Source: a virus. From it: DNA of 48,880 nt. The stretch lies in IMG/VR virus record IMGVR_UViG_3300009155_000083, positions 1 through 48,880 of that record. One strand, given 5' to 3'. The position numbers and the translations under genes are program-made. Position 1 is the first letter of the stretch. Every line of letters begins with the position of its first letter. Shown piece after piece: positions 27,177-48,467 of the stretch. The notes under the pieces are model-generated. The model worked only from the letters and a program-made list of their open reading frames with translations, did not search any database and was not told the DNA's origin.

Positions 27177-27177
27177 T

Positions 27178-27185
27178 ACTATTTA
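27178..27185 (+). promoter_or_regulatory. ACTATTTA motif directly before start codon
   Basis: The motif overlaps the clpP-like stop region and ends five bases before ATG 27191. If it is a -10 box the transcript would start at about the ATG (leaderless), or translation may begin at the later ATG 27260 behind AAAGAGAG. Confidence 0.45.
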
Positions 27186-27190
27186 TTAGC

Positions 27191-28576
27191 ATGAAAAACA
27201 ATAATGAATTAGACCAAATTGTAGAAAGCTTTTTAAGCCCCGCTCCTGTAAAAGAGAGTATGGGTCTTAAAGAGCTTTTTGCTCTATTTGAAGAAGTAAT
27301 TAACGAAGCAGCTTATACAGGTCTTTCACAACTTGGTACAGATAAACCACTAAGAGGCACAGAAGAAAAATATAAAACTGACTTCTTTAATTTGATGCAA
27401 GCTGCTTTAGGCCAAAAAATAGTAGGGGCTCCTAACGCTTCCGACGCTATTTTACAAATTATCACACAAATTGATGAATTAAAAAATCAAGAAAACTGGA
27501 AAAATTATAAGTTATCACAATCTATATCAGTTATAACTTTCGTTGAGTCATTATACGAAATGATTTATAATATCCAAGGCGACAATCCAGATGTAGCAGG
27601 TAAAATGTTTGAAAGATTTATAGCATTTGCAACAAAAGGCAGAGTATCGTCGCAAATTGCTTTAACTGATAAAGATTTAGCAACAAAAACAGGTGCTAGT
27701 GGTACATCAATATTCGATTTGATTACTCCAAATAACGAATACGTTTCGGTTAAATTAATAAAAGAGTTTAAAGTAACTGGTTCAATCAATAATTTATATA
27801 AATATTTATTTAATGTTAATGAAGATTATATACCAATAAACAAAGAAGAAATACAGAATAAAAAAACAGACAAAACAATAACTTATTTAGTTACTGTAAA
27901 AGGTCAAGATAGAGAACAATTAACTTTTTATGCTTTTACAATTACTTGTGATAATTTCATAAATGTTATTGGTGATAAAAGAATAGATGCCTATAACAAA
28001 GGTCTTACTTTTGATAAAGATCTTAAAAATTCAGAATCAGAAAAAGATAGGCTTGATAATGATATACAAGAATTAATAAATGCCTTAAGGGGCACCAGAA
28101 CAAATACTCGGGCATACGATGTTTTACAAATTAAAATATCAGAAAAAAGAAAAGAATTAAATGATGTTAATACTCATATAACTAATTTGTATAGAGCCAA
28201 GGGCAAACGCTCTACTTCATTTTCAATTTCTACAGATGAAGCACAACAATACAAAACAAATTTGTGGGGTTCTGTTCTTAAAGTAGAAGCTGGTGAAAGA
28301 GATACTATAGTTCAAAACAGTACAAGCATATTCAACGGTAAAATGAAAGGTCTTATTGAAGAAGCAAGTGCTGTTTATTATAAGGTTTCTAATCTTTTAT
28401 TGAAACTTGAAGATGAAAATGTAAGTTTGGAAGAAAAAATATCAACTGGTAAAGAAGCACACAACTCAATTAAAACACTAGAGGATTACCTCTTATCTGT
28501 TACTAAACAATATAATATAGCCCTAAAAGATAAGAAAGTTCCCGAACAAGATACAACACAAACAAAACTTTTTTAA
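27191..28576 (+). CDS. probable packaged protein, possibly with a restriction-endonuclease-like fold
   Basis: A 461-residue protein. Within the first 45 residues lies MGLKELFALFEEVINEAAYTG, a good capsid-targeting-like helix with an I-N-E-A cleavage point. ATG 27260 would start exactly there. Residues about 138-195 (GKMFERFIAFATKG, then IFDLITPNNEYVSVKLIKEF and GSINNLYKYL) resemble the E...D...xxK layout of PD-(D/E)xK nucleases. The C-terminal third is coiled-coil-like. An endonuclease packaged in the head is an attractive but unproven reading. Confidence 0.55.
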   Translation: MKNNNELDQIVESFLSPAPVKESMGLKELFALFEEVINEAAYTGLSQLGTDKPLRGTEEKYKTDFFNLMQAALGQKIVGAPNASDAILQIITQIDELKNQENWKNYKLSQSISVITFVESLYEMIYNIQGDNPDVAGKMFERFIAFATKGRVSSQIALTDKDLATKTGASGTSIFDLITPNNEYVSVKLIKEFKVTGSINNLYKYLFNVNEDYIPINKEEIQNKKTDKTITYLVTVKGQDREQLTFYAFTITCDNFINVIGDKRIDAYNKGLTFDKDLKNSESEKDRLDNDIQELINALRGTRTNTRAYDVLQIKISEKRKELNDVNTHITNLYRAKGKRSTSFSISTDEAQQYKTNLWGSVLKVEAGERDTIVQNSTSIFNGKMKGLIEEASAVYYKVSNLLLKLEDENVSLEEKISTGKEAHNSIKTLEDYLLSVTKQYNIALKDKKVPEQDTTQTKLF

Positions 28577-28577
28577 C

Positions 28578-28605
28578 TTGACTTTTTCTAAAACGATATT
28601 ATAAT
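28578..28605 (+). promoter_or_regulatory. near-consensus sigma70-type promoter for groEL
   Basis: TTGACT (28578-28583), a 16-base spacer and a perfect TATAAT (28600-28605). A GGAG ribosome site and ATG 28625 follow within 20 bases. It is one of the best matches to the bacterial consensus in the window. Confidence 0.75.
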
Positions 28606-28624
28606 ACCCATATACGGAGTTTTT

Positions 28625-30193
28625 ATGAGCAAAGATTATTGCGATGGTCGCTCTTTAAGTGAAGCGATTTTAAAAGGCGCAAATGTATTAGCAGACAACG
28701 TTTCCTCTACACTAGGACCAAGAGGAAGAAATGTAATTCTTCAAGAGAAAGGCAAAACACCAATCATTACCAAAGACGGTGTAACTGTGGCTTCTTTCGT
28801 TGAGCTTTCAGATCCATTTGAGAACTTGGGAGCACAGGTAATTAAACAAGCTTCTCAACAAACTGCTACTTTAGCTGGTGATGGAACTACTACATCAGTT
28901 GTTCTTTCACGCGCAATTCTTCGTGAAGCACAAAAATACCTAACTGCTGGTGTTTCTCCTACTGAATTAAAGAGAGGAATGGACCTAGCCGTAGATGCTT
29001 TGGTTACTAGGATTGAGGAGATAGCACAACCAATTTCGTCAGAGGAAGAAATCGAACATATTGCTTCAATTTCTGCTAACAACGATAGAACAATTGGTAA
29101 ATTAATTGCTACTGCTGTTGACAAGGTAGGTAAAGATGGTTCAATCACAATCGAAGAAGCTCGTTCGGTCGATACTTCTCTTGACGTTGTTGAAGGTTTT
29201 CGTTTTGATTCGGGATTCCTCGCCTCAGCGTTCATCAACGACGAGAGACGAGGGGTAGTAAAATATGAAGATCCTTATATACTTGTAACAGATCATAAAT
29301 TTGACTCTGTTCAAGATATGTTGCCTGTTCTTGAATTAATCGCAAGAGAAGGTAAACCATTTGTAATTGTAGCAGATGAAATTGAAGGTCAAGCTCTTGC
29401 TGCTCTTATTATGAACGCTATGAGAGGCACCATGAAAGTTGCAGCCGTTAAAGCTCCTCGTTATGGTGAAGAGCGTAAAAACATTCTTAAAGACCTTGCT
29501 ATTTCAGTAGGAGCAACTTTTGTTTCTCTTGAAAATAGTATGAAGATTGGTGATGTAAAACTAAAAGATTTTGGTCGTTCTAAGAAAATTGAAATTGCTA
29601 AAAACCTTACCACTATTGTAGGTGGAAAAGGTGATATGGAACAAGTTGACCAAAGAATTGAAACAATTAAAGCTGAACTTCAACAAACTGAATCAATTTA
29701 CGAGTGTGAACGTCTACAAGAAAGAATTACTCGTCTTGCTTCTGGTATCGCAATTATTCGTGTAGGTGCTCCAACTGAAATCGAAATGATAGAGAAGAAG
29801 CACCGTATTGAAGATGCCCTAGAAGCCGTCCGTAGTGCCCAACAGGAGGGTATCGTTGCTGGAGGTGGCGTAGCCCTCATTAGAGCAGCAGAAGGGATTG
29901 TAGACCCAACAGGGAACGAGGAACAGGCACTTGGTTTCAAGATCATAATGAAGGCTATTGAAGAACCTGTAAGACAAATGGCTCTAAATTCTGGAGAGTC
30001 ACCAGATATTATTGTAAGCATGGTTAAGACAGAACATACCAATTATGGTTATGATTTTTTAGGTCGTAAAATGATTGATATGGTCAAGAGCGGTATTATT
30101 GACCCAGCAAAAGTTACAAGATGTGCCCTTCAAAATGCAGCTTCTGCGGCAGGAACTTTGATTACGACTAATTATGCTATTGTTCAAAATTAG
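28625..30193 (+). CDS. groEL: GroEL-type chaperonin
   Basis: A 522-residue type I chaperonin subunit. Visible landmarks are LGPRGRNVILQEK, TKDGVTVASFVEL with the ATP-hydrolysis Asp, and AGDGTTTSVVL (nucleotide site). FDSGFLASAFIN, KAPRYGEERKNILKDLA and AGGGVALIRA follow. It is shorter than bacterial GroEL (about 548) and lacks the Gly-Gly-Met tail. It would form a double ring to fold phage head proteins, perhaps with the GroES-like protein at 11.1 kb. It has its own strong promoter and an ACTATTTA motif directly after the stop. Confidence 0.95.
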   Translation: MSKDYCDGRSLSEAILKGANVLADNVSSTLGPRGRNVILQEKGKTPIITKDGVTVASFVELSDPFENLGAQVIKQASQQTATLAGDGTTTSVVLSRAILREAQKYLTAGVSPTELKRGMDLAVDALVTRIEEIAQPISSEEEIEHIASISANNDRTIGKLIATAVDKVGKDGSITIEEARSVDTSLDVVEGFRFDSGFLASAFINDERRGVVKYEDPYILVTDHKFDSVQDMLPVLELIAREGKPFVIVADEIEGQALAALIMNAMRGTMKVAAVKAPRYGEERKNILKDLAISVGATFVSLENSMKIGDVKLKDFGRSKKIEIAKNLTTIVGGKGDMEQVDQRIETIKAELQQTESIYECERLQERITRLASGIAIIRVGAPTEIEMIEKKHRIEDALEAVRSAQQEGIVAGGGVALIRAAEGIVDPTGNEEQALGFKIIMKAIEEPVRQMALNSGESPDIIVSMVKTEHTNYGYDFLGRKMIDMVKSGIIDPAKVTRCALQNAASAAGTLITTNYAIVQN

Positions 30194-30194
30194 A

Positions 30195-30202
30195 ACTATT
30201 TA
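30195..30202 (+). promoter_or_regulatory. ACTATTTA motif, candidate late promoter
   Basis: The motif starts one base after the groEL stop and is followed by a small hairpin (TTAGC/GCTAA). The GGAGG site and ATG 30241 come next. Confidence 0.5.
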
Positions 30203-30240
30203 TAGTTAGCCTATTGTGCTAATCTTGGAGGGTGTTGTTT

Positions 30241-30531
30241 ATGGCTACTGGCACAGAGCTTAATGAGCTAAAGGAAGCCATAACGGCACTTGATAAAAAG
30301 GTCGATAGAATGATGAGTTCTATCGAAAACCTTAAAGAAAAACAAGATGATGTAGCCAAAGATATAACCAAAATAAAAGAAGCAGTATATCACCCAGACG
30401 ATGGTATTTACGCTCGTCTAAAAGTAATAGAAACTTGGAAAGAAAACCAAACAAAAGCAACTTGGATTGCTGTTACAGCGATCATAGGTCTTGCTATTAA
30501 ACAATTGTGGGATATACTTACACTACATTAG
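30241..30531 (+). CDS. coiled-coil protein with C-terminal membrane segment
   Basis: A 96-residue protein. A long coiled coil (about 6-50, KKVDRMMSSIENLKEKQDD) is followed by an ARLKVIETWKEN linker and a C-terminal hydrophobic segment (WIAVTAIIGLAIKQLW). This layout resembles XhlA/holin-accessory proteins or tail-anchored phage proteins. ATG 30241 is chosen because GGAGG lies just upstream. Function not certain. Confidence 0.6.
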   Translation: MATGTELNELKEAITALDKKVDRMMSSIENLKEKQDDVAKDITKIKEAVYHPDDGIYARLKVIETWKENQTKATWIAVTAIIGLAIKQLWDILTLH

Positions 30532-30540
30532 AGGTGTTTG

Positions 30541-30831
30541 TTGAAAGTAAAAATTTCTTATACAGTAGATTTTGATGAAGTTCCTAATCAAGTTTGTAGG
30601 ATTTTATCATATGAACAGTTATCAATTCTAAACAGAGAATATAACGATATAATTGAGAACATCAGCGAGAAGAATACTCAAAAAGCTTTAACTCAAATAC
30701 ATGACTTTAGAGTTAAATTAGCAAAGATTGATCAGACGCTAGACAACGCACAATCGATACTTGACGGCTACATGAGAGCGCAGTATACTGAGGGTGTGAC
30801 CGAGAATGATAATGAATCACAACAAGTATGA
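30541..30831 (+). CDS. conserved hypothetical protein with TTG start
   Basis: A 96-residue protein. The start is TTG 30541, six bases after GAGG, since no ATG is available in frame. It opens MKVKISYTVDFDEVP, a beta strand pair seen in uncharacterised phage proteins, then becomes a long helix (about 25-80). Coding ends within the next gene (26-base overlap). Confidence 0.6.
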   Translation: MKVKISYTVDFDEVPNQVCRILSYEQLSILNREYNDIIENISEKNTQKALTQIHDFRVKLAKIDQTLDNAQSILDGYMRAQYTEGVTENDNESQQV

Positions 30832-31039
30832 AGTAGGACAACCGATTACGGTCCTAGCTTCATGCGATTTGTTTTATCCATCAATTAAAAATCCTAATAA
30901 GCTTAAAAAGACACAAGAACCGATATTAGGATGGTTTGTTGAAAGTAAAGATACAACAGTAACTATTCTAACGACAGATGATGGATCTTATTGGGAAACA
31001 GAGTTAGATAGTATTAGACATTACATGGAGACAAAATGA
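30806..31039 (+). CDS. small hypothetical protein
   Basis: A 77-residue protein starting ATGATAATG within the end of the previous gene. It contains beta-strand-like segments (YEVGQPITVLASC, TVTILTTDDGSYW) suggesting a small barrel. It overlaps the next gene by four bases (ATGA). No clear ribosome site is visible, so translation is probably coupled. Confidence 0.55.
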   Translation: MIMNHNKYEVGQPITVLASCDLFYPSIKNPNKLKKTQEPILGWFVESKDTTVTILTTDDGSYWETELDSIRHYMETK

Positions 31040-31314
31040 TTGCCCTTACAGAAGTTTCACAGACAAGCACAGGAGAATATACAGTTAGGTCCGTATATGT
31101 TAACCCTAGTCAAGTTGTAATGATTCGTGAAGATAGCAGGTATTCCTCTCTTGTTAGAGAAGGTAAACTTTCCTCATTAGGTTTTAATCCTGGTGTTGAG
31201 TTTACTCGCATTACAATTAGGGGAGGCACAAGCAACTACGATATTACGGTTGCTGGTTCTGCTCCAACAATTTATGAGAAGATGAACTATTCCAAATCTC
31301 TTCTTAAAGGTTAA
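31036..31314 (+). CDS. conserved hypothetical protein
   Basis: A 92-residue beta-rich protein (MIALTEVSQTSTGEYTVRSV, VNPSQVVMIRED) ending in a short helix. The 'V(N)P..V..I.E' pattern is common in small phage proteins and FlbD-like folds. Coupled to the upstream gene by ATGA. Function unknown. Confidence 0.6.
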   Translation: MIALTEVSQTSTGEYTVRSVYVNPSQVVMIREDSRYSSLVREGKLSSLGFNPGVEFTRITIRGGTSNYDITVAGSAPTIYEKMNYSKSLLKG

Positions 31315-31317
31315 ACC

Positions 31318-31581
31318 ATGCACATAGCTTATTATCATATTCACGCTCTTGGAGATTGTGAATATTGCCTTGATGCACTTAAACTTCTTCAAGATAATGG
31401 TTATCAATATGTTTTAACTCTTTATGATAAATCGCCAGAAGCTTTGAATTTCATTAAATATACTATGGACCATCCAACGGTTCCAATTATTTATGAGTAT
31501 CGAAAAGATAAAAGTATTAGGAAAATTGGTGGTTATACAGAGTTGAAGAAAGAGCTTGACAGCCTCCACGAACAGGAATAG
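31318..31581 (+). CDS. glutaredoxin-like protein
   Basis: An 87-residue thioredoxin-fold protein. The redox motif CEYC is at 14-17, preceded by a strand (IAYYHIHALGD), and the cis-Pro motif TVPIIYEY lies near 55-62. It could reduce ribonucleotide reductase or other disulfides. It ends just before the TTGACA promoter for the next unit; the -35 box lies inside its last codons. Confidence 0.7.
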   Translation: MHIAYYHIHALGDCEYCLDALKLLQDNGYQYVLTLYDKSPEALNFIKYTMDHPTVPIIYEYRKDKSIRKIGGYTELKKELDSLHEQE

Positions 31582-31584
31582 AAT
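31556..31584 (+). promoter_or_regulatory. strong sigma70-type promoter
   Basis: TTGACA (31556-31561), a 17-base spacer and TAGAAT (31579-31584). A TAGGAG ribosome site and ATG 31608 follow. Confidence 0.7.
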
Positions 31585-31607
31585 ACTAAACAAAGGTAGG
31601 AGATAGC

Positions 31608-32213
31608 ATGGGTCGCCCAAAGGGTTCTAAGAACAAGCCTAAGAATGTTGAAGTTGAGGTTGAAACTAAGCAAGAAGAGGTTAAGGTAGTGGCAAGCGAA
31701 GAACCAAAGAAGGAACGCAAGCCAAGGATCACCAAGAGGGTTAAGGATGAAGAAGACGACGAGATTACTGTCGTTGACCAAGGAGCACTTGAAGCCCGTA
31801 AGAATCTTGATGATAGAACTCTTAATCCATACGCAACAACTACTATAGAGCAATTTGAGTGTGAGTTTATGCCTCTTACAGAGCGACTTACACCAATTGA
31901 CGAGAAGAGTGAGATTAAGAGTGGAAGATATTCCAGCTCTTATTATCCGATCAAGAATTGTAATATGAGCGTTTGGCCTGTTCTTGCTTATATCAAGGCA
32001 GATGTTGACGTTCTAAGGACAAAGGGTTATACTGATAAGGTAATCTACGCTGGTTGTATTAACTTCCTCTCCTCACAAACCAGCGGCAAGAAGCGTAAGT
32101 ATGGTAATCTTTTTCCATTCAGCTTTGCTTTTAAGGAAGATAAGATTATTGCTACTTTTATTACAGACGACCGAAAGAATAAGAACTTTTGGGGAGAAGG
32201 ACTTGGAGTATAA
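31608..32213 (+). CDS. hypothetical protein with AT-hook-like basic N-terminus
   Basis: A 201-residue protein. It opens MGRPKGSKNKPKN, an AT-hook-like Gly-Arg-Pro element that may contact the DNA minor groove. A long charged Lys/Glu region follows (to about 65), then a folded C-terminal domain (about 80-201) with CNMSVWPVLAYIKADVD and YGNLFPFSFAFKEDK. It has its own strong promoter. No family recognised. DNA binding is inferred only from the N-terminus. Confidence 0.6.
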   Translation: MGRPKGSKNKPKNVEVEVETKQEEVKVVASEEPKKERKPRITKRVKDEEDDEITVVDQGALEARKNLDDRTLNPYATTTIEQFECEFMPLTERLTPIDEKSEIKSGRYSSSYYPIKNCNMSVWPVLAYIKADVDVLRTKGYTDKVIYAGCINFLSSQTSGKKRKYGNLFPFSFAFKEDKIIATFITDDRKNKNFWGEGLGV

Positions 32214-32214
32214 A

Positions 32215-32604
32215 ATGAAATGTGTTAAAGAGATGATTAAAAAGCCTTGGGGCTACGAGCAGATTATCCAAAAGAATGATCAATATGTTCTTAAACAAAT
32301 TCATATTGAACCGGGAAAACGTTTATCTCTCCAATACCATGAGCATAAGACAGAAACTATTTTCTGTATGTCCGATGAAGCAATCGTGTGGACAAAGCGA
32401 TCCGCCGATGATACAGAAGTAAAGAAGGTAACGCTGAAGTATGGAGAAGCTTTTCATATTGAGCCTCAACAGATTCATCGTTTTGCAGCAGGGTTTAAAG
32501 CTGTTGACCTTCTAGAAGTATCTACACCACAACTTGATGATGTAGTTCGCCTTGAAGATGATTATAATCGTATTGAAGTATCTACCACAACAACACAGGA
32601 GTAA
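32215..32604 (+). CDS. cupin protein, phosphomannose isomerase/WxcM-like
   Basis: A 129-residue cupin. KPWGYEQIIQ opens the fold, and PGKRLSLQYHEHKTETIFCM gives the metal-binding His-x-His...Glu of cupin motif 1. Motif 2 is AFHIEPQQIHRF. Such cupins occur as the isomerase domain of type II phosphomannose isomerases and in sugar modification. ATG 32215 follows GGAG at the end of the previous gene. The substrate is unknown; sugar metabolism is the likeliest role. Confidence 0.75.
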   Translation: MKCVKEMIKKPWGYEQIIQKNDQYVLKQIHIEPGKRLSLQYHEHKTETIFCMSDEAIVWTKRSADDTEVKKVTLKYGEAFHIEPQQIHRFAAGFKAVDLLEVSTPQLDDVVRLEDDYNRIEVSTTTTQE

Positions 32605-32607
32605 TTA

Positions 32608-32895
32608 ATGACTTTCGCACGCACCGCTATTGAGACAACTGATATCGAGAATAATATTGATGTAGACGTTAATCGCTCTTATTCTAGCTTTGGGATTCGT
32701 ATTGTTCGTAATGCCGTAAGCAAGCGTAAGCTCTCTAATCGTGTTTCAGTTACTATTCCCGATGGACGTAGTGAGAGCACCTTTCATCTTACTATTCGTG
32801 AGGCAAATGCTCTTCGTAAGTTTTTGAATGAAAACCTTGATGAAGGTGTTGAAGGTTCTACTATGGTGTCTATGACTATGCGTGAGGCAAGCTGA
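32608..32895 (+). CDS. hypothetical protein
   Basis: A 95-residue protein, beta-rich start (SYSSFGIRIVRN, VSVTIPDGRSESTFHLTI) and a helix REANALRKFLNEN. It may form a small sandwich or ribbon-helix fold. It follows the cupin by three bases with a CAGGAG site. No family recognised. Confidence 0.6.
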   Translation: MTFARTAIETTDIENNIDVDVNRSYSSFGIRIVRNAVSKRKLSNRVSVTIPDGRSESTFHLTIREANALRKFLNENLDEGVEGSTMVSMTMREAS

Positions 32896-32935
32896 AATGA
32901 TTACGCCTACAACTTCACAAGGAGACAATAGTTAT

Positions 32936-33304
32936 ATGAATATCGCACAAGCACTAGATCGTCTTTATACTGACGCTTTTCCTCTTGCTTCTTATCCTCC
33001 CCCAAGGGCTACACTTAATAACGTAGATTTTGTGTATAACGAGAAGAGTGGAACTTATACTGCCACTATTGACGCAGCGGGAGCAGATAAGACAAAGTTT
33101 AATGTCAACATTTCAAATGGACTTCTTACTGTTTCTTATCGTGCTACAGAAGGGTTCCGTTGCCGTTCGTTCACTTACTCATTTACTCTTGGACGTAATG
33201 TAAACGTTGCAGAGTCAGTTGGTGAGTATAAGGACGGGGTTCTAAGGGTTGACGTTCATACTACAACTCAACGTAATGATACTTTCAACGTTCCAATCTT
33301 TTAG
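32936..33304 (+). CDS. small heat-shock protein (Hsp20/alpha-crystallin family)
   Basis: A 122-residue protein. A short helical N-terminus (IAQALDRLYTDAF) precedes an alpha-crystallin-like domain (about 30-120) with YTATIDAAGADKTKFNVNIS, SFTLGRNVNVAESVGEYKDG and VLRVDV. That GVLRV-type ending is the family signature. It would hold unfolded proteins, alongside GroEL. ATG 32936 is preferred because AAGGAG lies 11 bases before it; the frame is open back to 32882. A terminator follows. Confidence 0.75.
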   Translation: MNIAQALDRLYTDAFPLASYPPPRATLNNVDFVYNEKSGTYTATIDAAGADKTKFNVNISNGLLTVSYRATEGFRCRSFTYSFTLGRNVNVAESVGEYKDGVLRVDVHTTTQRNDTFNVPIF

Positions 33305-33321
33305 TTAATATCACAAATAAG

Positions 33322-33352
33322 CCGCCAAGGGTTCTTACTCTTGGCGGTTTTT
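33322..33352 (+). terminator. intrinsic terminator after hsp20
   Basis: An 11-base-pair stem with one G-U pair, CCGCCAAGGGT (33322-33332) with ACTCTTGGCGG (33337-33347), a 4-base loop and a T-run. Confidence 0.9.
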
Positions 33353-33391: not shown

Positions 33392-36300
33392 ATGGCCCAA
33401 TATGATAAACTTTGGAATAAATGGTATAGTAATAAAATACTAAATGAAATGGCTCCTAAAATAGCTAATAGAGTTGTAGCTGTTTCAGATCAAATAAAAC
33501 AAAAAGCAGGCTTAGAAGGGCTTAATGATAGCTATACAAGAATGGCTGCTTTTCCAGAGATATTTGGTGATAAATTAAGAATTGTTGGTGAATATTCTAC
33601 TAGCGAACTTAATATAATGTCTAAATACTTAAAAGAACTTGCTAACCTTGCTGATGCATCTTTAGAGGATAAAGAAAGTAAAGGTTTTATAAAAAGACCC
33701 CAAGTTGGTGGTGGTGCATATTTTACTTACGATTTAGCAAAAGTAACACAAACAAGAAGAAGATTACGAGAACAAGGTGGAGGAGAATATGAAGTTTCAG
33801 TTGAATATTATCAACCATTTTTACAATATGAATATACTCAAACCGCTAATGGAGCTTTTAAAAGAGAAACTTATTCGTTACTTAAAGCTTTCAATAAATT
33901 TAAAATGAAAGAAGCAGCAGAATATTGGGATAAAATTCAATCAACAGCTACAAAAGATAAAAATTTTATTACAACCTTAACTACGGATTGGTCGTTACCA
34001 GAAAAAAAAGGTAAATCTTCTGATCAAGATAAAATAATTGTATATTCTCGCGCTCCTATTGACGTTTTAAGAATGTCAGATCACCCAGATATATCCTCCT
34101 GTCACTCTCAAGGTGGTGGCTACTTCAAATGCGCTATTCAAGAAGCAGTTAGAGGTGGTGCTATTGCTTATTCTGTTAAAAAAGATGATTTACAAAAAAT
34201 AATTGATGAAGGTAGATTACAAGATATTGAAATATTTGCCGATCCAGAAAGAGGTATTGAAGGTATCGTTCCAGATGGTAGAGTTAGAATTAGAAGAATG
34301 TTTGATACCGATACAAAAATAGAATATGCTTTACCAGAATTTAAAAAGTATGGTAATCTACCAAATTCTTTTGGAAAATCAGTTTTAAAGTGGGCAGTAG
34401 ATAACCAAAGAAATAAATTTATGGATATTGAAACAAAGGAATTCAAGCTTCCAAAAATAGAAAACGCTATAAAAGTTGGTGGTTCTTATAATGATAATAT
34501 TTCTTTTGAACTTTATAACCAATTAGCGCGAGGGGTTGCTAAATCATTTGGAGAAGAACTAGATAAATTAGATATCGAACATTTTTATATTGAAGATACA
34601 ACCGTTAATGAAGGAGCAGATCTTATTACTGATTGCGAAAGAAAGGCAAGAGAAATTATAAGCGTATCTATGCTTCCAGATGCGGGAAGCCTTATTGGAA
34701 TAAAAGATTATAAAATTTATTGTAAAAAAGATGGTAAAACAGGTTTATACTCAAGTAAAGAAGAATTTTCTGTACGAGGTCAAGGGGGTTTAGGAGAGGA
34801 AGAATATAATGATGAATTTGATAGAATAGAAATAGAATATTCAGTTGTATTAAAATTTAGTTACGTTAAGGCAAAAATTATATCCGAATTAAATAGCGAC
34901 ATAATAAAACAACTAATTGTAAAAACAGAAGAATTATCACCATACGGAAATCTTTATAGAATTTATAAACAATTTGGATTAGAAAAAGCAGAATTTGAGA
35001 TAAGTAATGTTGATGCTTATGGAAATAAATTAGCCAGTTCTTATGGTGGTGGTTACGGTGGTGGTAATACTTATAATAACCAATATAGTTATATTTTTGC
35101 TACTCATGTTGTTGCTTATACGCAAATAGACCAACCTTACGAATTAAATTTAATGTTAAGAAGTGCAGGTTCCTACCAAAATTATAACAATAATTTGTAT
35201 GAGGTTATTGAAGCTGCTGGCGTTGAACTTGGTGTAATGGAAGCACAACCATTTAATACTTTTTTTGCTAAGCGTTTGTTTGCCGATATAAACAAAACAG
35301 ATTTTATGACTTATGTTAGAGGTCAATATGGATCGTATGTAACTTTCCGTTCTCCTTCAAATTTAAACGATAAAATTGATAATAGTCCGATATATTCACC
35401 TCTTAAGCAACCAAGAATAGAATTTCCACATTATACTGATATGGAAGCAGCTCGCGCCGCAGGGGACAGTGTTGCTAATGTCAGATCTGAAATAGGAGAT
35501 TATTTCTATTTTTATAGAATTCCAAGAGAAGCAATTAGAGCAAGTATGCAATTAGCTACTAAGGAAACACACCCTAATCTTAAGTATTATGATATATATG
35601 ATTTAAATCGCGACGAAAAAAATAAATTAAGAGTTTTAATGAGTAATTTAAGATCAACGTGTGAGGAAGTTGCAAGAAATATGTTTAAATTATTTCCAAC
35701 AAAAATAAAAGGACAAATAGAATTATTACCATATATTCACGATGCTGTTATCTCAAGTAAAGAAAATGATGTTTTAGCTGATGCCCAGATTGCATTTAGT
35801 TTAAAGGTATCACTCCCAAGTGGTCTTTATGCTCCAGAACAATTAGAAACATTAAAAACACTTCAAAATTTATACGAAAACTTTGATAAATTTAAGGATT
35901 CTCTTGAAAAAGAACTTATATATCAGCTTCGTAATAGCCCCTATAGAGATGTAAAAGATCTTATGTCTAAATACTATTTGAAAGGTATTGAGGGTGATAG
36001 ACCATTAGCTCAATCTGCTCTTGACCTTAATAATGAAGAAGTAATAAAAGACATAGTTTCAAAAGTTCAAGATAATGTTTTAGAAACAGCAAAGAAAGAA
36101 TGGATAGAATATAATGGAAATTATGAGTCATACAGAAAACCATTCTTTTCTGTTCTCTTGGAAGATAAAAAAACAATAAGGGTTTATTATACTCAGTGTC
36201 ATAGCTTTAAAAAAGTTGTTCCTTGGGATGAAAAAATATTTTATGCTGATTTTCAAATAATAAAACTTAATAATGAAAGTGAATTTTTAAGATTTTATTG

Positions 36301-36661
36301 TATCTCTCCACCAGAATCAAATAAAAGATATGTAGCTTCACAAGCTAGTGTAATAACAGGTAATATGAATAATATAGTTGATAAATTATCTAGTTTTATT
36401 CATATTAAAGGATACCAGGTTGTTCCTACAACACTAGAAGAAGAAAAACATTTATTATCTGGTTATGAAGAACAAATGACGTTTGATATAAAAGCAGAGA
36501 AAGAAGCAGAACAACAAAAACTTATGAATTTACGAGGAACAGTAAGCAACAAACCAGAAACACAAGAAAAAGAACCAGAACAGTTAGGTTTATTTGAACG
36601 TAAGCAGAGAAACAAACTAATTAAAGAGAGATTACTTAATTGGTATAAAAGGAATAAATAA
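33392..36661 (+). CDS. giant packaged-type protein, paralogue A of three
   Basis: A 1089-residue protein of unknown function. The N-terminus LWNKWYSNKILNEM is a capsid-targeting-like helix with an I-L-N-E site. A block near 57-64 (FGDKLRIV) is shared with paralogue B. The core at about 215-310 is shared by all three: SRAPIDVLRMSD, SSCHS, YFKCA, GAIAY, then EIFADPERG and RVRIRRM. The Cys-His-Ser and neighbouring Asp could be catalytic. A Gly/Tyr-rich loop (YGGGYGGG) lies near 555. The C-terminus LIKERLLNWYKRNK is a basic helix. It starts the operon behind terminator and ACTATTTA. Arginine is mostly encoded by AGA. Confidence 0.7.
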   Translation: MAQYDKLWNKWYSNKILNEMAPKIANRVVAVSDQIKQKAGLEGLNDSYTRMAAFPEIFGDKLRIVGEYSTSELNIMSKYLKELANLADASLEDKESKGFIKRPQVGGGAYFTYDLAKVTQTRRRLREQGGGEYEVSVEYYQPFLQYEYTQTANGAFKRETYSLLKAFNKFKMKEAAEYWDKIQSTATKDKNFITTLTTDWSLPEKKGKSSDQDKIIVYSRAPIDVLRMSDHPDISSCHSQGGGYFKCAIQEAVRGGAIAYSVKKDDLQKIIDEGRLQDIEIFADPERGIEGIVPDGRVRIRRMFDTDTKIEYALPEFKKYGNLPNSFGKSVLKWAVDNQRNKFMDIETKEFKLPKIENAIKVGGSYNDNISFELYNQLARGVAKSFGEELDKLDIEHFYIEDTTVNEGADLITDCERKAREIISVSMLPDAGSLIGIKDYKIYCKKDGKTGLYSSKEEFSVRGQGGLGEEEYNDEFDRIEIEYSVVLKFSYVKAKIISELNSDIIKQLIVKTEELSPYGNLYRIYKQFGLEKAEFEISNVDAYGNKLASSYGGGYGGGNTYNNQYSYIFATHVVAYTQIDQPYELNLMLRSAGSYQNYNNNLYEVIEAAGVELGVMEAQPFNTFFAKRLFADINKTDFMTYVRGQYGSYVTFRSPSNLNDKIDNSPIYSPLKQPRIEFPHYTDMEAARAAGDSVANVRSEIGDYFYFYRIPREAIRASMQLATKETHPNLKYYDIYDLNRDEKNKLRVLMSNLRSTCEEVARNMFKLFPTKIKGQIELLPYIHDAVISSKENDVLADAQIAFSLKVSLPSGLYAPEQLETLKTLQNLYENFDKFKDSLEKELIYQLRNSPYRDVKDLMSKYYLKGIEGDRPLAQSALDLNNEEVIKDIVSKVQDNVLETAKKEWIEYNGNYESYRKPFFSVLLEDKKTIRVYYTQCHSFKKVVPWDEKIFYADFQIIKLNNESEFLRFYCISPPESNKRYVASQASVITGNMNNIVDKLSSFIHIKGYQVVPTTLEEEKHLLSGYEEQMTFDIKAEKEAEQQKLMNLRGTVSNKPETQEKEPEQLGLFERKQRNKLIKERLLNWYKRNK

Positions 36662-39348
36662 TGTCTTCTAAAACTACTTATCAGCTTCTATGGGAGGGTT
36701 TTTTAAAAGAAAAACAACTACTAAACGAAATGACACCAAATTTCGTAAACCTTATAGCAAACGCAAGTAGAGTAGCAAAAGAAAGACCAGAGATATTACC
36801 ATTTAAAGATTTGTTTGGTGATAAATTAAGAATTGTTATTCCATTTCAACAAAAAAACGTTGAAAAGATAGCCTTTTTGCTTACAGTTTTTAAAGGAATT
36901 GGTTCTTATGTAGATTATAAAGAAAGTTACACTCCAATTGTTTCACAAGAAAAAAAGATGATAAAGAAACGTCGTCAAGGAGATGGTGAAATTTACGAAG
37001 AAGAACAAATTATAAATCAAATTTTAATTAATAATGGTTATTTAGATAAAAAAGGAACTCAAAAATATAGAACTTTCTCTGTTGTTACTGCTCTTCAAAG
37101 ATTTGTTTCAATTTGCAAACGTTATATCCAAGATTTAAAAACAGACAAAATTCAAAACGAATATTCTAACGCACCACACACTCCAGAATTTAAACAAACT
37201 GCTACCGAACGCACTACTAATTTAATTAATCACATCTCCCCTATGATTGAATGGTGGCAGAAGAATCAAGCAAAAATTATTCAAGATCAAGATGTTCCAA
37301 GATTAGCAGTTGATCGATATACTGACACTCCTTCTAGCTCTTATTTACAATTTGATTCATTTGACGAAGATGAAGGTGTTGGTGAAGTTTCTTCAAGATA
37401 TTCAATTATTCTTTCTCGCGTTCCTATAGATGTTTTAAGAATGTCGGACTTTGCTGATGAAGGGATATCATCCTGTCACTCTACACCCGCTATGTATGGT
37501 AAGAATAATTATTTTAACTGTACCATAGCTGAAGCACAAAACGAAGGTGGTATTGCTTTTGTCGTAGAAACAAAAGATCTAGAACAAATAAATATTAATA
37601 ATGATGAAATATTTAGTGATCCCCAAAGAGGTGTTCCTGGTATAAGACCAGTTGAAAGAGTTCGTTTAAGAACAGTTAAGAATACTTCTACTGGTCAAAC
37701 TTTTGCTGCTACTGAAAATGCTGTATATGGTAGCAGAAGAATTCTTGGTTTTACTGATTATGTTAAAGATTATGTAGCTAAGCAACAAGTTAAAGGTTTG
37801 ATTAGCACAGATGAAGAAGGTAACAAAAAATTAAATTTACCAGATGATATTAGAGAATTAGTAATGCTTGGTGGTGATTATGCAGATTATCCATATGTTT
37901 ACGGTGCATTTGAAAATATGCTTAGTAAGGTAACTGAAATTGCTAGTGTAGAAACAACAGAAGAACAAAAAACTATTATAAGAAATTTGTATAAAATGTC
38001 TTATGCTGGTAAAGCAAGGGACTATTCTCAATATAAAAAGGTTGGATTACAAAACGATTATGACGATGATGATGATGATGATAATGGTGAAGCACAAGAA
38101 GCAGAAATAGCTGAAAATACATTTGATGACGATAAAGGAAGAGCAATAAGGAATTCAAAATTATTTAATTTCTCTTCTTGTAGATTTAATTGGATTTGGG
38201 GAGAACATACGGCCACAGTAGAATTTTATGCTTACTTCCAAATTTCAATTCCAAAAGATCAAATAGCAGATAATTTCTTTGATGGTGAAGGTGGAAATAA
38301 AACCTTAAACGATAAAGAATTGGTTAAAGCAATTGTAGAAGTGCTTAGCGAAGATGATGAAAAAGGTTCAATTAATTATAATTACCCAGACGTTCCACTA
38401 GTCGAAGATGAATGTTACGCTGAAGTCGGTGATAAATCTGTAAGAGTAAAAATCTATTATGCTGATACTGAATTAGATTATACTGAATTTGATTCAAGAG
38501 TAACTGATATGTTAAGATTTGAAAGATCTATTGGCGATTTTGAAGATCTAGAGGAAGATTTTATATCTGTCCTTAGAATTAGCAGTATTCTAAAGCCAAG
38601 AGATACACTTGAAGCAACACCAAAAGAAATGGTTATGAGTTTCGATAATTGGGTTGAAGATAAATCTAGAAATTTTGAAAAAGTTAATAATTTCTATTAT
38701 TTTAAACCAGAGAAATCACAATTTACTGATGAAAACTTAAGAGGTTGGCGTTTAGCAACATTTCCAATTGATAAATGGGCGGGCAAATTAGAGTATTTTA
38801 ATATCCCTCATTTAAGAGATAGGTTAGGTGAAGCAATCTCACAATATATTTATTCACACGAAATCAAATCAATTATGAGAAATGCTTCTACTCAAGTTGG
38901 TATGTTTCAAGATATTGAACCACAAGTAGAATCACAACCACATCGTAGAACATCAATATTTAACAGAAACAACTTTAATATTGAAATTAAATATATACCT
39001 ATCACAAGTGGAGGACCATTAGGTTCTTTTACAGGTGAAACAATTAGTAGTCCAACAGATAAATTTATTATAGTTGCTATTCCAAGAATTAAATTTGATA
39101 GAAAAATTGATTCTGCCGAAGACATAAAAGAGCTAATAAACTATATGTATAGAATGGAAGAAAATCCAGAAGCATTTGTAGATTTGTTACATGAGGGTTT
39201 CCAACAAGCAATCAAACAATCCCCCAGCTTTCAAGAGATTTTAAATTCACTACAAAATGATACTACACAAAAGTTGACTGAAAGTAGAAAAAGAGTTATT
39301 AAAGAAAGATTAAAGAATTGGTATAGAGCTAATAAAGGAATGAATTAA
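36661..39348 (+). CDS. giant packaged-type protein, paralogue B of three
   Basis: An 895-residue protein. The N-terminus LLWEGFLKEKQLLNEM has two capsid-targeting-like (L/I)-x-E sites, then FGDKLRIVIPF. The shared core (about 250-355) reads SRVPIDVLRMSD, SSCHS, YFNCT, GGIAF, EIFSDPQRG and RVRLRT. An aspartate run (DYDDDDDDD) lies near 460. The end RKRVIKERLKNWYRANK matches paralogue A. It overlaps A by one base (TAATG). A 24-base stretch starting 36814 is identical to 33563 in A, showing recent common origin or gene conversion. Function unknown. Confidence 0.7.
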   Translation: MSSKTTYQLLWEGFLKEKQLLNEMTPNFVNLIANASRVAKERPEILPFKDLFGDKLRIVIPFQQKNVEKIAFLLTVFKGIGSYVDYKESYTPIVSQEKKMIKKRRQGDGEIYEEEQIINQILINNGYLDKKGTQKYRTFSVVTALQRFVSICKRYIQDLKTDKIQNEYSNAPHTPEFKQTATERTTNLINHISPMIEWWQKNQAKIIQDQDVPRLAVDRYTDTPSSSYLQFDSFDEDEGVGEVSSRYSIILSRVPIDVLRMSDFADEGISSCHSTPAMYGKNNYFNCTIAEAQNEGGIAFVVETKDLEQININNDEIFSDPQRGVPGIRPVERVRLRTVKNTSTGQTFAATENAVYGSRRILGFTDYVKDYVAKQQVKGLISTDEEGNKKLNLPDDIRELVMLGGDYADYPYVYGAFENMLSKVTEIASVETTEEQKTIIRNLYKMSYAGKARDYSQYKKVGLQNDYDDDDDDDNGEAQEAEIAENTFDDDKGRAIRNSKLFNFSSCRFNWIWGEHTATVEFYAYFQISIPKDQIADNFFDGEGGNKTLNDKELVKAIVEVLSEDDEKGSINYNYPDVPLVEDECYAEVGDKSVRVKIYYADTELDYTEFDSRVTDMLRFERSIGDFEDLEEDFISVLRISSILKPRDTLEATPKEMVMSFDNWVEDKSRNFEKVNNFYYFKPEKSQFTDENLRGWRLATFPIDKWAGKLEYFNIPHLRDRLGEAISQYIYSHEIKSIMRNASTQVGMFQDIEPQVESQPHRRTSIFNRNNFNIEIKYIPITSGGPLGSFTGETISSPTDKFIIVAIPRIKFDRKIDSAEDIKELINYMYRMEENPEAFVDLLHEGFQQAIKQSPSFQEILNSLQNDTTQKLTESRKRVIKERLKNWYRANKGMN

Positions 39349-42179
39349 TGTCGAAGAACACATCACATTATAACTGGAATCTTTGGTCTAGCAAGAACAA
39401 AAAGTTAACAGAAAGAAAGAAAGTTTTGTTAAAAGAAATAGAAGATGAATATTTAAATATGATTATGCCCGCTATTCTTGCTGCTGGTGAGGGTAGAAAC
39501 CAAAACTTTGCTCCTTATTTCGGTAATCAAAACAGAATTGTAATTCCTTACGATGAATCAAAACTTAATTATATTGTAACATTAGCAGCAATATGCTACA
39601 AATACGTTGATAAAGCAATAAGTTATCAAATAGATGCTTATAGAAAAACTGATGTTTACAAACAAGATCAAAAACAAGTAGATACTATATTATTAAACTT
39701 ATGGGATACTGATTCTGCCGAATATTATAGACAGAGAAATTTATTTGGTAACAGATATCCAGAGCTACAATCACTCAATCTTAACATTTCAAAAAAAGAA
39801 ACTATACAAACAGGTGTTGGTGCTGGTGGAATTGGAACAGTAGAAAGAAAAGTAATTATATACGAACCTGTCCTTGAATATAAGATTACTAAACCTATCT
39901 TACTTACAAGTGAGAAATACTCAGATCAAAATAGGCAAAGTGTTACTAATGTTGTTTCTACATTTGGAGAAATTCTTAGGAAGAACGGTGAGAAAGAGTT
40001 ATTTGATGAATGGAATGGAGCTAAAGGTTTAAAATCATTTAGAGAAATGATCTGTCAAGACGCTGAAGTAGTCCAAAGTGCTAAAGAAATATTTGATAAA
40101 ACAAACAGTGTTCTTTTAGCCAAGGATATAGGAAGCTTAAAGTATATATTAAAAGGAGTTATGGAAGCAAAAGAAAGTGAATATTCTATTGTTATTTCAA
40201 GAGCACCTATCGATGTATTAAGAATGGCCGATTTTAGAGGTATGGGTTCTTGTCACTCTCCTCCTAGTCGTGGTGGTGAAGGAGGATCATATTTTTATTG
40301 TGCTCTTGCCGAATCTAGAAACCAAGGAGCAATTGCTTATCTTGTTAGAACAGAAGAATTAGAAAAAGTAAATCTTAAAGGTGAAGAAATATTTCTAGAT
40401 TATGATAGAGGGATTAGTGGTATAGAACCAACATCAAGATTAAGAATTAGAAGAGTAATAGATGAAGATCGTGGTGTAGATTATATGGTCCCAGAAGAAA
40501 AAGTTTATGGTGTTCAAAAATCATTCTTTTATGATTCAGTATCAAAATGGGCGATGAAACAACAAAAAGATTTGTTCGTTGATGGAGATGATGTTTATGT
40601 TCCAGAAAAAAGGGATTTAAGTTATAAAGGTGGTTCTTATAGTGATTCTGGAGAAGGTGGACTAGCAGAAGAGTTAAGAAAAATAATTGAATATTCTATT
40701 AAAATCAATAAAGGCGATGAAGCAGTAATAAATTATAAGGGTCAAGTTAATCAAATTTCACGTTTAGCTCACAGTGGTGAAGAAGATGAAGATGAAGTAT
40801 CTAACCAGTGTGGAGAAGCTGAAGCGCATGTAGAATATTGGGAAGATGAATTTAGATCAGTAGGATATGTTACTACCTATTATGATGTTGATTGTAACGG
40901 AAGAGCATTAGACGAAATAAAGGTATCTTACAACTTTGCTCCAGAAATTACAGATGAATTTGAATATAATAATAAGACATATAAGTTTTCCGAAAAAAAA
41001 CTAATGGAACAAGTTGGTAGTGGCTATTTCGGTAGTAATTCTGGTCTTAATTACCAATTTAATCTTAAACTTTCTAAATATTTAGAATCTATACCCAAAT
41101 TTAAAGATATATATTCTAACTATAATCTTAAATCAGATCTCCAATTTTATAGAGATTCTGTTACGTTTGACATAACAATAAGTAATAATTTCCCAACAAC
41201 ACAAGAAGTAACCTATTTTAATCAAAAATTCAAAGAAGCTTTTTCTTATTATGAACTTTATGAATTCTATGATGTTTGTATTGAATTCTTAGAAGAACAT
41301 AAATTTTATGAAGATTCTGCCTTTGATAAAGCAAACAAAGTATCAATACAAACATTTGCCGAAGATCTATTCAAAACAAGAAACCATTTTAGATGGAATG
41401 AAAGTGATAGCGAAGAAGGAAAAAATGATACTTTCTCTCTTATAGAAGATCCAGAAGGTAAAACAGCAGATTTAAGTCCAGAAAATAATCCAATTGTAGG
41501 TATAATCCCATATGTTTATGAAAAGCGTTGGGCAATTAATGATGCTTTTGCTGATAAAACCACACCTTTTCAAAGACAGTTTAGATATAGAGTATTACAA
41601 ACACTAAAAGATGGAATCTCATATGATCAACAACCACTTAAATTTATGCAGTCACAACCTTATACAACTAGTGAAAGAGAAAATACAGGTAGGACTCCAT
41701 CAGCAAAACTACCAGATTGGGATAATATAAGATCCTATTTATTTATTGATGAAGACATAAATTTTTTAACACCAAAAGATAAAACTGTAAAAGTAAGAGT
41801 TTACTTTGATATTACACTTGACCAACAAATGAGCGAAAATGAATTGATTGGTGCTATGAACTATATGGATATTTATGGCTCCGAGAAATACGATGAACTA
41901 ATGAAAATTCTAACAGACGCATTTAAAGAAACTTGGAAAGAGATAGGAGATACAATTATAGACAAAGATACTCAAAGATATCATGCTAAAATGGACACAC
42001 CAGAACCTTCAAGTGCTAACGACTATAAACCATTAGAATCTGGTGTTAAAACAGGTAAGCTTCCTTTGTATACTATGGATTCTGTCCAACAACCCGAAAA
42101 TAAAAATGAGTCAAAGCAAGGAAAGAAACTAGTTATTAATGAAAGATTCAAACGTTTATTAAGGAACATTAAGAAATGA
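39348..42179 (+). CDS. giant packaged-type protein, paralogue C of three
   Basis: A 943-residue protein. The N-terminus has WNLWSSKNKKLTERKK followed by LLKEIEDEY, a propeptide-like site. FGNQNRIVIPYDE corresponds to FGDKLRIV in A and B. The shared core (about 282-390) reads SRAPIDVLRMAD, GSCHS, YFYCA, GAIAY, EIFLDYDRG and RLRIRR. The end is VINERFKRLLRNIKK, a basic helix like A and B. It is more diverged than A and B are from each other. It overlaps B by one base and the HAD gene by four. Function unknown. Confidence 0.7.
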   Translation: MSKNTSHYNWNLWSSKNKKLTERKKVLLKEIEDEYLNMIMPAILAAGEGRNQNFAPYFGNQNRIVIPYDESKLNYIVTLAAICYKYVDKAISYQIDAYRKTDVYKQDQKQVDTILLNLWDTDSAEYYRQRNLFGNRYPELQSLNLNISKKETIQTGVGAGGIGTVERKVIIYEPVLEYKITKPILLTSEKYSDQNRQSVTNVVSTFGEILRKNGEKELFDEWNGAKGLKSFREMICQDAEVVQSAKEIFDKTNSVLLAKDIGSLKYILKGVMEAKESEYSIVISRAPIDVLRMADFRGMGSCHSPPSRGGEGGSYFYCALAESRNQGAIAYLVRTEELEKVNLKGEEIFLDYDRGISGIEPTSRLRIRRVIDEDRGVDYMVPEEKVYGVQKSFFYDSVSKWAMKQQKDLFVDGDDVYVPEKRDLSYKGGSYSDSGEGGLAEELRKIIEYSIKINKGDEAVINYKGQVNQISRLAHSGEEDEDEVSNQCGEAEAHVEYWEDEFRSVGYVTTYYDVDCNGRALDEIKVSYNFAPEITDEFEYNNKTYKFSEKKLMEQVGSGYFGSNSGLNYQFNLKLSKYLESIPKFKDIYSNYNLKSDLQFYRDSVTFDITISNNFPTTQEVTYFNQKFKEAFSYYELYEFYDVCIEFLEEHKFYEDSAFDKANKVSIQTFAEDLFKTRNHFRWNESDSEEGKNDTFSLIEDPEGKTADLSPENNPIVGIIPYVYEKRWAINDAFADKTTPFQRQFRYRVLQTLKDGISYDQQPLKFMQSQPYTTSERENTGRTPSAKLPDWDNIRSYLFIDEDINFLTPKDKTVKVRVYFDITLDQQMSENELIGAMNYMDIYGSEKYDELMKILTDAFKETWKEIGDTIIDKDTQRYHAKMDTPEPSSANDYKPLESGVKTGKLPLYTMDSVQQPENKNESKQGKKLVINERFKRLLRNIKK

Positions 42180-47190: not shown

Positions 47191-47267
47191 GTGGGGATAG
47201 CTCAACCGGATAGAGCAACAGGTTTCTACCCTGTAGGTTGAAGGTTCAAGTCCTTCTCTCCACGCCA
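47191..47267 (+). tRNA. tRNA-Arg (anticodon TCT)
   Basis: Complete cloverleaf: acceptor GTGGGGA with TCTCCAC, anticodon stem ACAGG/CCTGT with loop TTTCTAC, T-arm GAAGG/CCTTC, encoded CCA. Reads AGA, the main Arg codon of the late genes here. Confidence 0.95.
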
Positions 47268-47334
47268 CTTTAACAATATGCTATACCGATTATGATGCTT
47301 TTAAAAGCTCGTTTAAACCAACTGTAAACATTAT

Positions 47335-47411
47335 CCACCTTTAGCTCAGTTGGTCAGAGCAATAAGCTTATATCTTATCGGTCCCCCGTTCAAGTCGGGG
47401 AAGGTGGACCA
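47335..47411 (+). tRNA. tRNA-Ile (anticodon TAT)
   Basis: Acceptor CCACCTT with AAGGTGG, anticodon stem ATAAG/CTTAT with loop CTTATAT, T-arm CCCCG/CGGGG, encoded CCA. Reads ATA, used often in the giant late genes. An unmodified TAT anticodon is rare in bacteria, where ATA is usually read by lysidine-modified CAT. If the CAT-type convention held it would misassign, but here the DNA anticodon is TAT. Confidence 0.92.
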
Positions 47412-47463
47412 ATTCAATAATTGTGAGATAATCAATTTGACACGCTGGAAAGACAGTGATTTT

Positions 47464-47548
47464 GGCCTCTTGGTGGAACGGTATACACAACTGACTTAAA
47501 ATCAGTCGCCCTTCGGGCTTGCGAGTTCAAATCTCGCAGAGGCCACCA
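47464..47548 (+). tRNA. tRNA-Leu (anticodon TAA)
   Basis: Acceptor GGCCTCT with AGAGGCC, anticodon stem ACTGA/TCAGT with loop CTTAAAA, long variable arm (GCCCTTCGGGC), T-arm GCGAG/CTCGC, encoded CCA. Reads TTA. Confidence 0.95.
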
Positions 47549-47554
47549 CTTTTT

Positions 47555-47639
47555 GGGAAGATGGTGTAATGGTAGCCACGAAGCACTCAAAATGCTTTGC
47601 TCTACGAGCGTAAGGGTTCAAATCCCTTTCTTCCCACCA
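47555..47639 (+). tRNA. tRNA-Leu (anticodon CAA)
   Basis: Acceptor GGGAAGA with TCTTCCC, anticodon stem AAGCA/TGCTT with loop CTCAAAA, long variable arm, T-arm AAGGG/CCCTT, encoded CCA. Reads TTG. Confidence 0.93.
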
Positions 47640-47645
47640 CATTTA

Positions 47646-47735
47646 GGAAACGTGACCGAGAGGTTTATGGTGTCGGTCTTGAAAACCGAAGAGGTCTAAA
47701 AGCCTCCGTGAGTTCAAATCTCACCGTTTCCGCCA
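47646..47735 (+). tRNA. tRNA-Ser (anticodon TGA)
   Basis: Acceptor GGAAACG with CGTTTCC, anticodon stem TCGGT/ACCGA with loop CTTGAAA, long variable arm (GAGGTCTAAAAGCCTC), T-arm GTGAG/CTCAC, discriminator G, encoded CCA. Reads TCA. Confidence 0.95.
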
Positions 47736-47740
47736 TTTTA

Positions 47741-47816
47741 GGGATGGTAGCTCAGTTGGTAGAGCGAGGGCCTTTTAAGCCCAAGGTCGTGGGATCGTGC
47801 CCCACCCGTCCCACCA
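47741..47816 (+). tRNA. tRNA-Lys (anticodon TTT) with unusual T-loop
   Basis: Acceptor GGGATGG with CCGTCCC, anticodon loop CTTTTAA, T-stem GTGGG/CCCAC, encoded CCA. The T-loop is ATCGTGC: position 54 is A and 58 is T, the reverse of the nearly universal T54-A58. The anticodon stem AGGGC/GCCCA has an A-A mismatch at its outer pair. Confidence 0.85.
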
Positions 47817-47831
47817 CTTTAAGTTAATATA

Positions 47832-48293
47832 ATGTCAAGACAAACTGATTACACAAATATTCCTACACATAATGTAATTTGCTCAGTATGTAATAAAGAA
47901 AAAGATTATAAATCATTTACATACTATAAAACTAGATTTACATCAGACGGGTTACGTTTGAGGGTCAATACAAATTGTAAAGATTGTCAGCGTAGTTTAG
48001 CTAATGATTTAAATAATGTTAAGAAGATTGCTCCTAATCGTCCTCAAACTTGTGATTGTTGTGGTAAAACCCCACCTAACAACAGAAATTGGCAATTAGA
48101 TCACGATCATAAAGCAGGTAAGTTTGCTGGATGGTTATGTAAGGATTGTAATGTAGGACTAGGAAAGTTAGGAGATACTGCTAGTTCAGTTACTAAATCT
48201 TGGATATATACTATGTCTACGAGATCTGATGTAACAAAAGAATTAATTGAAGAAGCTCAGATATTTCTTGACAAACTAAAAGAAACATATTAA
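47832..48293 (+). CDS. endonuclease VII-like HNH endonuclease within the tRNA cluster
   Basis: A 153-residue protein. An N-terminal four-cysteine site (CSVC at 17-20 and CKDC at 49-52) is followed by the endonuclease VII core: CDCCG near 74-78, LDHDHKAGKFAGWLCKDCN (89-107) and LGKLGD. The core matches the genes at 466 and 48559. It is likely a free-standing homing endonuclease that inserted between tRNA genes and shares the tRNA promoter. A true Holliday-junction resolvase role is less likely given three copies. The start lacks a strong ribosome site. Confidence 0.85.
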   Translation: MSRQTDYTNIPTHNVICSVCNKEKDYKSFTYYKTRFTSDGLRLRVNTNCKDCQRSLANDLNNVKKIAPNRPQTCDCCGKTPPNNRNWQLDHDHKAGKFAGWLCKDCNVGLGKLGDTASSVTKSWIYTMSTRSDVTKELIEEAQIFLDKLKETY

Positions 48294-48304
48294 CTTTATC
48301 TTTT

Positions 48305-48380
48305 GCCTGTATAGCTCAGTTGGTAGAGCACTATCTTTGTAAGCTAGTGGTCACCCGTTCAAATCGGGTTACAGGCTCCA
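48305..48380 (+). tRNA. tRNA-Thr (anticodon TGT)
   Basis: Acceptor GCCTGTA with TACAGGC, anticodon loop TTTGTAA, T-arm ACCCG/CGGGT, encoded CCA. The anticodon stem CTATC/GCTAG has one T-C mismatch. Reads ACA. Confidence 0.92.
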
Positions 48381-48385
48381 CATAT

Positions 48386-48460
48386 GGTCGCATGGTCTAG
48401 GGGTCATGACGCTAGCCTTTCACGCTGGAAATCGGGGTTCAACTCCCCGTGCGACTACCA
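48386..48460 (+). tRNA. tRNA-Glu (anticodon TTC)
   Basis: Acceptor GGTCGCA with TGCGACT (first pair G-T), anticodon stem CTAGC/GCTGG with loop CTTTCAC, T-arm CGGGG/CCCCG, encoded CCA. Reads GAA. Confidence 0.92.
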
Positions 48461-48467
48461 ATTTTAT

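Follow-up and report, generated by a model that had tools for sequence, protein, structure and literature searches.

The question raised by this locus is what three very large, adjacent proteins of related sequence do for a phage. The window, i.e. the whole stretch of 48,880 bases that was analysed, is a piece of a T4-type phage encoding a UvsX-like recombinase, a DnaB-like helicase, a DNA polymerase, GroEL and a ClpP-like protease. An earlier note, made from the letters of this DNA, had placed three tandem giant open reading frames at positions 33392-42179, and both these coordinates and the lengths of 1089, 895 and 943 aa were confirmed. The three (A, B, and C), together with an open reading frame for a 288-aa protein, form one co-directional, overlapping cluster, which is preceded on its 5' side by a hairpin and the octamer ACTATTTA, in agreement with the note's description of an operon behind one element. 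The features of this region are:

33322..33347 (T run to 33352), + strand: hairpin CCGCCAAG...CTTGGCGG followed by a T run; same layout in the related phages L004, L009 and L010
33364..33371, + strand: ACTATTTA, just after the hairpin and T run and just upstream of the ATG of A
33392..36661, + strand: paralogue A, 1089 aa; ortholog in L004
36661..39348, + strand: paralogue B, 895 aa
39348..42179, + strand: paralogue C, 943 aa
42176..43042, + strand: 288-aa protein with the N-terminal LNSWKGFLNE; overlaps the stop codon of C; syntenic in L004, L009 and L010

The 288-aa protein had been labelled a HAD protein; that label is based upon the HAD-like motifs FDWDDNL, TARGH and GFSDDD, read by eye only, and it received no support from any library scanned. 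Immediately 5' of the trio (26484-33304) are the genes for the ClpP-like protease, GroEL and a small heat-shock protein. Elsewhere, the window contains nine tRNA genes (47191-48544) and a homologue of the PurZ-like 2-aminoadenylosuccinate synthetase (21877-22914; phrog_1211, 5.6e-69), and the DNA of this phage may thus contain 2-aminoadenine.

All three proteins carry a domain, referred to here as D1, that contains the FGDKLRIV-type blocks, followed by a shared core. The similarity is real and far beyond chance by blastp (A-B: 1.8e-26, 27.5% over 418 residues; A-C: 9e-34, 44% over 160 residues; B-C: 3e-36, 28% over 522 residues), but the core comprises about 170 residues (A 213-378, B 245-410, C 277-442) rather than the 100 that had been claimed. 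The N-terminal blocks pointed out earlier are located in D1 and form part of the A-B match, and the 24-base stretch reported as identical between A and B was found at 33563 and 36814, where it encodes FGDKLRIV, i.e. a conserved motif in identical codons. Basic C-terminal helices are likewise present in A, B, and C, with the C-termini of A and B matching by blastp. Within the three genes, the following parts were delimited:

33392..33448, + strand: N-terminal peptide of A, MAQYDKLWNKWYSNKILNE, a candidate targeting peptide or propeptide; L-N-E site before the folded helix, residues 1-20 of low pLDDT, helix from 22
33533..33991, + strand: D1 of A, residues ~48-200, alpha/beta in the model, with FGDKLRIV; within the homology to the distant branch
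34019..34546, + strand: core of A, residues ~210-385, SRAPIDVLRM...SCHS...YFKC, predicted GNAT-like topology; SCHS at 34097-34108
36599..36658, + strand: C-terminal basic helix of A, RKQRNKLIKERLLNWYKRNK, common to the C-terminus of B (blastp)
36661..36729, + strand: N-terminal peptide of B, ending LLNE
37393..37890, + strand: core of B
39286..39345, + strand: C-terminal basic helix of B, RKRVIKERLKNWYRANKGMN
39348..39437, + strand: N-terminal peptide of C, ending LLKE
40176..40673, + strand: core of C
42123..42176, + strand: C-terminal basic helix of C, KKLVINERFKRLLRNIKK

Scans of A, B, C and their relatives against Pfam, PHROGs and NCBIfam yielded, for the core, nothing but weak hits to unrelated families, and neither the core, nor D1 plus core, nor the distant branch described below gave a match in profile searches of the PDB; the statement that no characterised family is known is borne out by these searches. 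Relatives were sought with a profile built from six cores, which was run over the IMG/VR viral contigs and identified 73 loci in a single scan, corresponding to 58 non-redundant cores on contigs of up to 619 kb. The closest relative genome, a 184-kb IMG/VR contig (G001), contains orthologs of A, B, and C and of the 288-aa protein in unchanged order, L009 carries the trio, and L010 carries B and C. In a tree based upon the cores, the orthologs of B (98/95) and those of C (98/93) formed separate supported clades, indicating that the B/C duplication predates the divergence of these phages. Nine loci have a nucleotidyltransferase gene of the phrog_36119 type, either close to the core gene or as a fusion with it; the fusion is an 1820-aa protein (L030:4797-10256, on a 619-kb phage contig) with a nucleotidyltransferase domain, D1 and the core, and further stretches of it that by eye look like ART and GNAT domains were not confirmed on checking. 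In L063-L077, a long insertion splits the core between its SCHS half and its EIFxD half. A genome scan with the near-branch profile found one contig in a Desulfobacterales MAG, which is probably viral. A tblastn search of A against cultured phages gave no match, and cultured-phage relatives surfaced only with a profile and with a relative's core as queries.

These more distant relatives belong to jumbo phages, and their D1 and core are homologous to those of the near branch (hhalign probability 99.1, E 1.5e-18, 191 columns). The motif SxHPYDxxGMSTxRxWxSCM or close variants of it are present in Atu_ph07 (AUZ95153.1) and in two uncultured jumbo phages; in Pseudomonas phage Lu11 such genes form a tandem of three, Lu11_0207 to Lu11_0209 (hypothetical proteins), and Erwinia and Dickeya jumbo phages have homologues at one or two places each. 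The distant profile matched 154 stretches in a single scan, and its genome scan gave no match. In the distant-branch loci L139-L218, D1 and the core are constant and the C-termini are diverse, including DUF4116-like and GTW..G-type repeats. The label 'putative exonuclease SbcD' carried by the homologue of Erwinia pEa_SNUABM_5 was rejected, as the homologues in related phages are unnamed and no support for a nuclease was found here.

The 58 near-branch cores have a set of invariant residues, namely R, P, D, R, M, C, H, C, E, F, D, R, R, Y and G. Of the 'EIF-D-RG' element described previously, E, F, D and R (56/58) are conserved in the relatives, but the G is not. The Cys and His of SCHS are both among the invariant residues; as the patterns used to find the loci included P[IV]DVLRM and YFxC and left out C-H, this conservation is no artefact of locus finding. 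In the distant branch the Cys is kept, the residue that follows it is Met in 89 of 101 proteins and elsewhere also V, L or K, and the second Cys (of YFxC) is absent. Hence, the Cys is a near-universal residue of the superfamily, whereas the His and the second Cys are limited to the near branch.

The sequences flanking these genes and their N-termini bear upon where the proteins act. The hairpin and T run at 33322 likely terminate the upstream transcript, and the order hairpin, ACTA[T/A]TTA, ribosome-binding site is also found ahead of the locus in the three relatives L004, L009 and L010. The octamer ACTATTTA occurs 11 times on the + strand of the window (at 443, 8009, 13746, 17958, 19542, 22036, 25238, 25332, 27178, 30195 and 33364) and not at all on the - strand (2.6 expected), and in G001 it occurs 32 times on the + and seven times on the - strand (11.7 expected). 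In the latter genome it is found no more than 65 bases upstream of 24 genes, several of them in the capsid region, and it precedes tail-region genes as well; the element before the trio there is ACTAATTA. This strand-biased octamer is probably the late promoter element of this phage group, and its copy at 33364 likely serves the trio operon. It also precedes, in several cases, the genes of a G001 cluster (72363-76744; L128, L129) whose products share the N-terminus MK-LLENWKxFLxE and are candidates for further internal head proteins.

The N-termini, which had been called propeptide-like, do resemble the propeptides involved in capsid targeting and prohead protease cleavage. Of 54 near-branch proteins, 50 have an [LIVM]xE[IVML] motif among their first 50 residues, compared with 16% of random stretches from the same proteins, and in the model of A the residues L17-N18-E19 lie between the low-confidence N-terminus and the first folded helix. 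Of the distant-branch proteins, 38 of 73 start with a T4-like ...LxEA peptide (e.g. MKIKQITEALKPSQYR), and the Lu11, Erwinia and Dickeya members lack an LxE site. Genes for the gp21-family protease (PF03420) and for the gp23-family capsid protein (PF07068) were each detected in 11 of 12 core-bearing genomes, G001 having the protease; none of the gp21 type was identified in the window, which is a 49-kb fragment. The internal proteins of T4 have a conserved targeting sequence and are otherwise diverse binders (PMC3012670), and in giant phages, homologous proteases cleave the ejection proteins behind a Glu (PMC5694885). Based upon the L-x-E site, the gp21 and gp23 genes and the late-promoter-like element, we consider it probable that A, B, and C are packaged head proteins. 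Against this, the core genes are surrounded not by head genes but by genes for chaperones, proteases and replication, and the LxE motif could have been kept by common descent for another reason.

A structure prediction of the core sharpens what the earlier note called an unknown function. An AlphaFold2 model of residues 1-403 of A, based upon a 47-sequence alignment (pLDDT 83.6, pTM 0.77), shows the elements b1 (214-219), a1 (222-226), a2 (243-254), b2 (256-263), b3 (296-305), b4 (310-321), a3 (327-343), b5 (359-362) and a4 (371-385). This order, b1-a1-a2-b2-b3-b4-a3-b5-a4, which was assigned by DSSP in the predicted models of A 1-403 and of the core of a different relative (L033; pTM 0.56), is the GNAT topology. 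In VIA-align comparisons of the core region, all of the matches listed were GNAT-type folds, including HAT1, SSAT, RimI, AAC, AtaT and TacT, with best Z-scores of 4.6 (A) and 5.5 (L033); at structural Z-scores below 8, chance arrangements are common. Foldseek alone gave no significant match in the PDB, profile searches of the PDB found no GNAT chain, and no GNAT model was among the Pfam families listed for 47 members (E up to 10). Additionally, the acetyl-CoA loop [QR]xxGx[GA] between b4 and a3 is present in only seven of the 58 sequences. With Z-scores below 8 throughout and 51 of the 58 sequences lacking the loop motif, we refer to the core as GNAT-like and do not file it as GNAT, although it may function in the manner of one; a GNAT-type fold is, judged from these models, its probable architecture. 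Matches in BFVD were other phage proteins, including a Dickeya phage homologue, and the C-terminal domain of L033 weakly resembles YbjN/secretion-chaperone-like folds (2plg, ExsC, YbjN, AmyR; Z 4.6-5.7).

Computation establishes the family with its conservation and synteny, the motif at the N-termini, the relatives' protease and capsid genes and the predicted order of the fold, whereas the packaging, cleavage, injection, catalysis and target of A, B, and C are inferred. The three would be internal head proteins that a T4-type phage expresses late, built from D1, the GNAT-like core, whose beta1-alpha1-alpha2 region (SRxPxDVLRMSD...SCHS) is conserved to an unusual degree, and C-terminal domains that vary and have a terminal basic helix. 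A short targeting peptide would be cut after L-x-E, probably by a gp21-type prohead protease of the phage, and the proteins, packaged in the head, would be carried into the host along with the DNA and there act on a host target by group transfer, in a role like that of T4 Alt or phage Rac. Injected phage proteins of large size that carry GNAT, ART and NTase domains are known, and Alt is an injected modifier of the host RNA polymerase (PMC5512222, PMC7824862). The role comparable to Alt that had been suggested is kept as the best reading of these sequences. Packaging and fold are moderately supported; the explanation as a whole, in which packaged, processed and injected GNAT-like head proteins act on the host, is put forward tentatively, its chances being somewhat short of even, and that the modelled core is an active transferase is possible but doubtful.

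The alternative that survives best is that these are non-catalytic internal head proteins (core proteins, DNA-condensing proteins, or inhibitors of host nucleases like T4 IPI), the GNAT-derived fold being a scaffold or binding module and the basic C-terminal helices binding scaffold or DNA. The rarity of the acetyl-CoA loop motif, the basic helix common to the paralogues, and the diversity of the T4 internal proteins, which share only their targeting sequence (PMC3012670), agree with it; however, the invariance of R, D, R, C, E, D, R and R in 58 proteins is more active-site-like than binding-surface-like, and we regard this alternative as rather unlikely. The proteins might also remain unpackaged in the cytoplasm and act late, with the ClpP, GroEL and small heat-shock set, in quality control or takeover, since phage GroEL and/or ClpP genes come just before the core gene in some 20 diverse loci; but many family members are located away from these genes, and a virion role is suggested by the LxE site near the N-terminus and by the late-type promoter, which makes this quite unlikely. 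Lastly, the Cys-His enzyme suggested by the earlier note, taken here as a cysteine protease or transferase, is very improbable despite the invariance of both residues in the near branch and of the Cys beyond it, as Met replaces the His in most distant homologues, a papain-like fold is absent among the structural matches listed, and a Cys and His adjacent in sequence have the wrong geometry for papain-like enzymes.

The finding is real and larger than the earlier note could see: the superfamily is widespread in large phages and its core highly conserved, yet it has no functional annotation. If packaged and active, it would represent a common enzyme of the first minute of host takeover, comparable to Alt, and its invariant core residues make a direct mutational test possible. 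A more speculative and unlikely proposal is that it constitutes a new, phage-only class of virion-delivered transferases, which large T4-type and jumbo phages maintain in tandem sets and in which a GNAT-derived fold has a different donor or a different catalytic centre, built on the conserved SRxPxD..RMS..SC motif.

Compared with known systems, A, B, and C share with T4 Alt and IPI-III an N-terminal peptide with an L-x-E site, a late-type promoter and the presence of several paralogues, and the genomes of their relatives have T4-type protease and capsid genes. They are much larger than the T4 internal proteins, and no ADP-ribosyltransferase similarity as in Alt was found in them, an R-S-E ART domain having no Pfam, PHROG or PDB match in searches that divergent ARTs could escape. 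GNAT-fold acyltransferases are similar in topology order and in all of the structural matches listed, the PExRxYG where b4 turns into a3 in the core is reminiscent of the P..R..G of GNATs, and phage Rac is likened by role; the core differs from them in having no sequence-profile match, in the loop missing from most members, and in its conserved b1-a1-a2 region with SCHS and inserted EIFxDxxR segment. Polyvalent proteins (Iyer et al. 2017, PMC5512222), which are defined by at least two disparate catalytic domains per polypeptide, are similarly very large and multi-domain, with a constant N-terminal part and variable C-termini; A, B, and C have no second recognised catalytic domain, whereas L030 joins an NTase to the core. 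The closest likeness in cultured phages is with the homologues from Lu11, Atu_ph07, Erwinia and Dickeya, which differ in their motif, in the missing second Cys and in their C-termini, but whose D1 and core are homologous to those of A, B, and C and which in Lu11 also occur as three in tandem.
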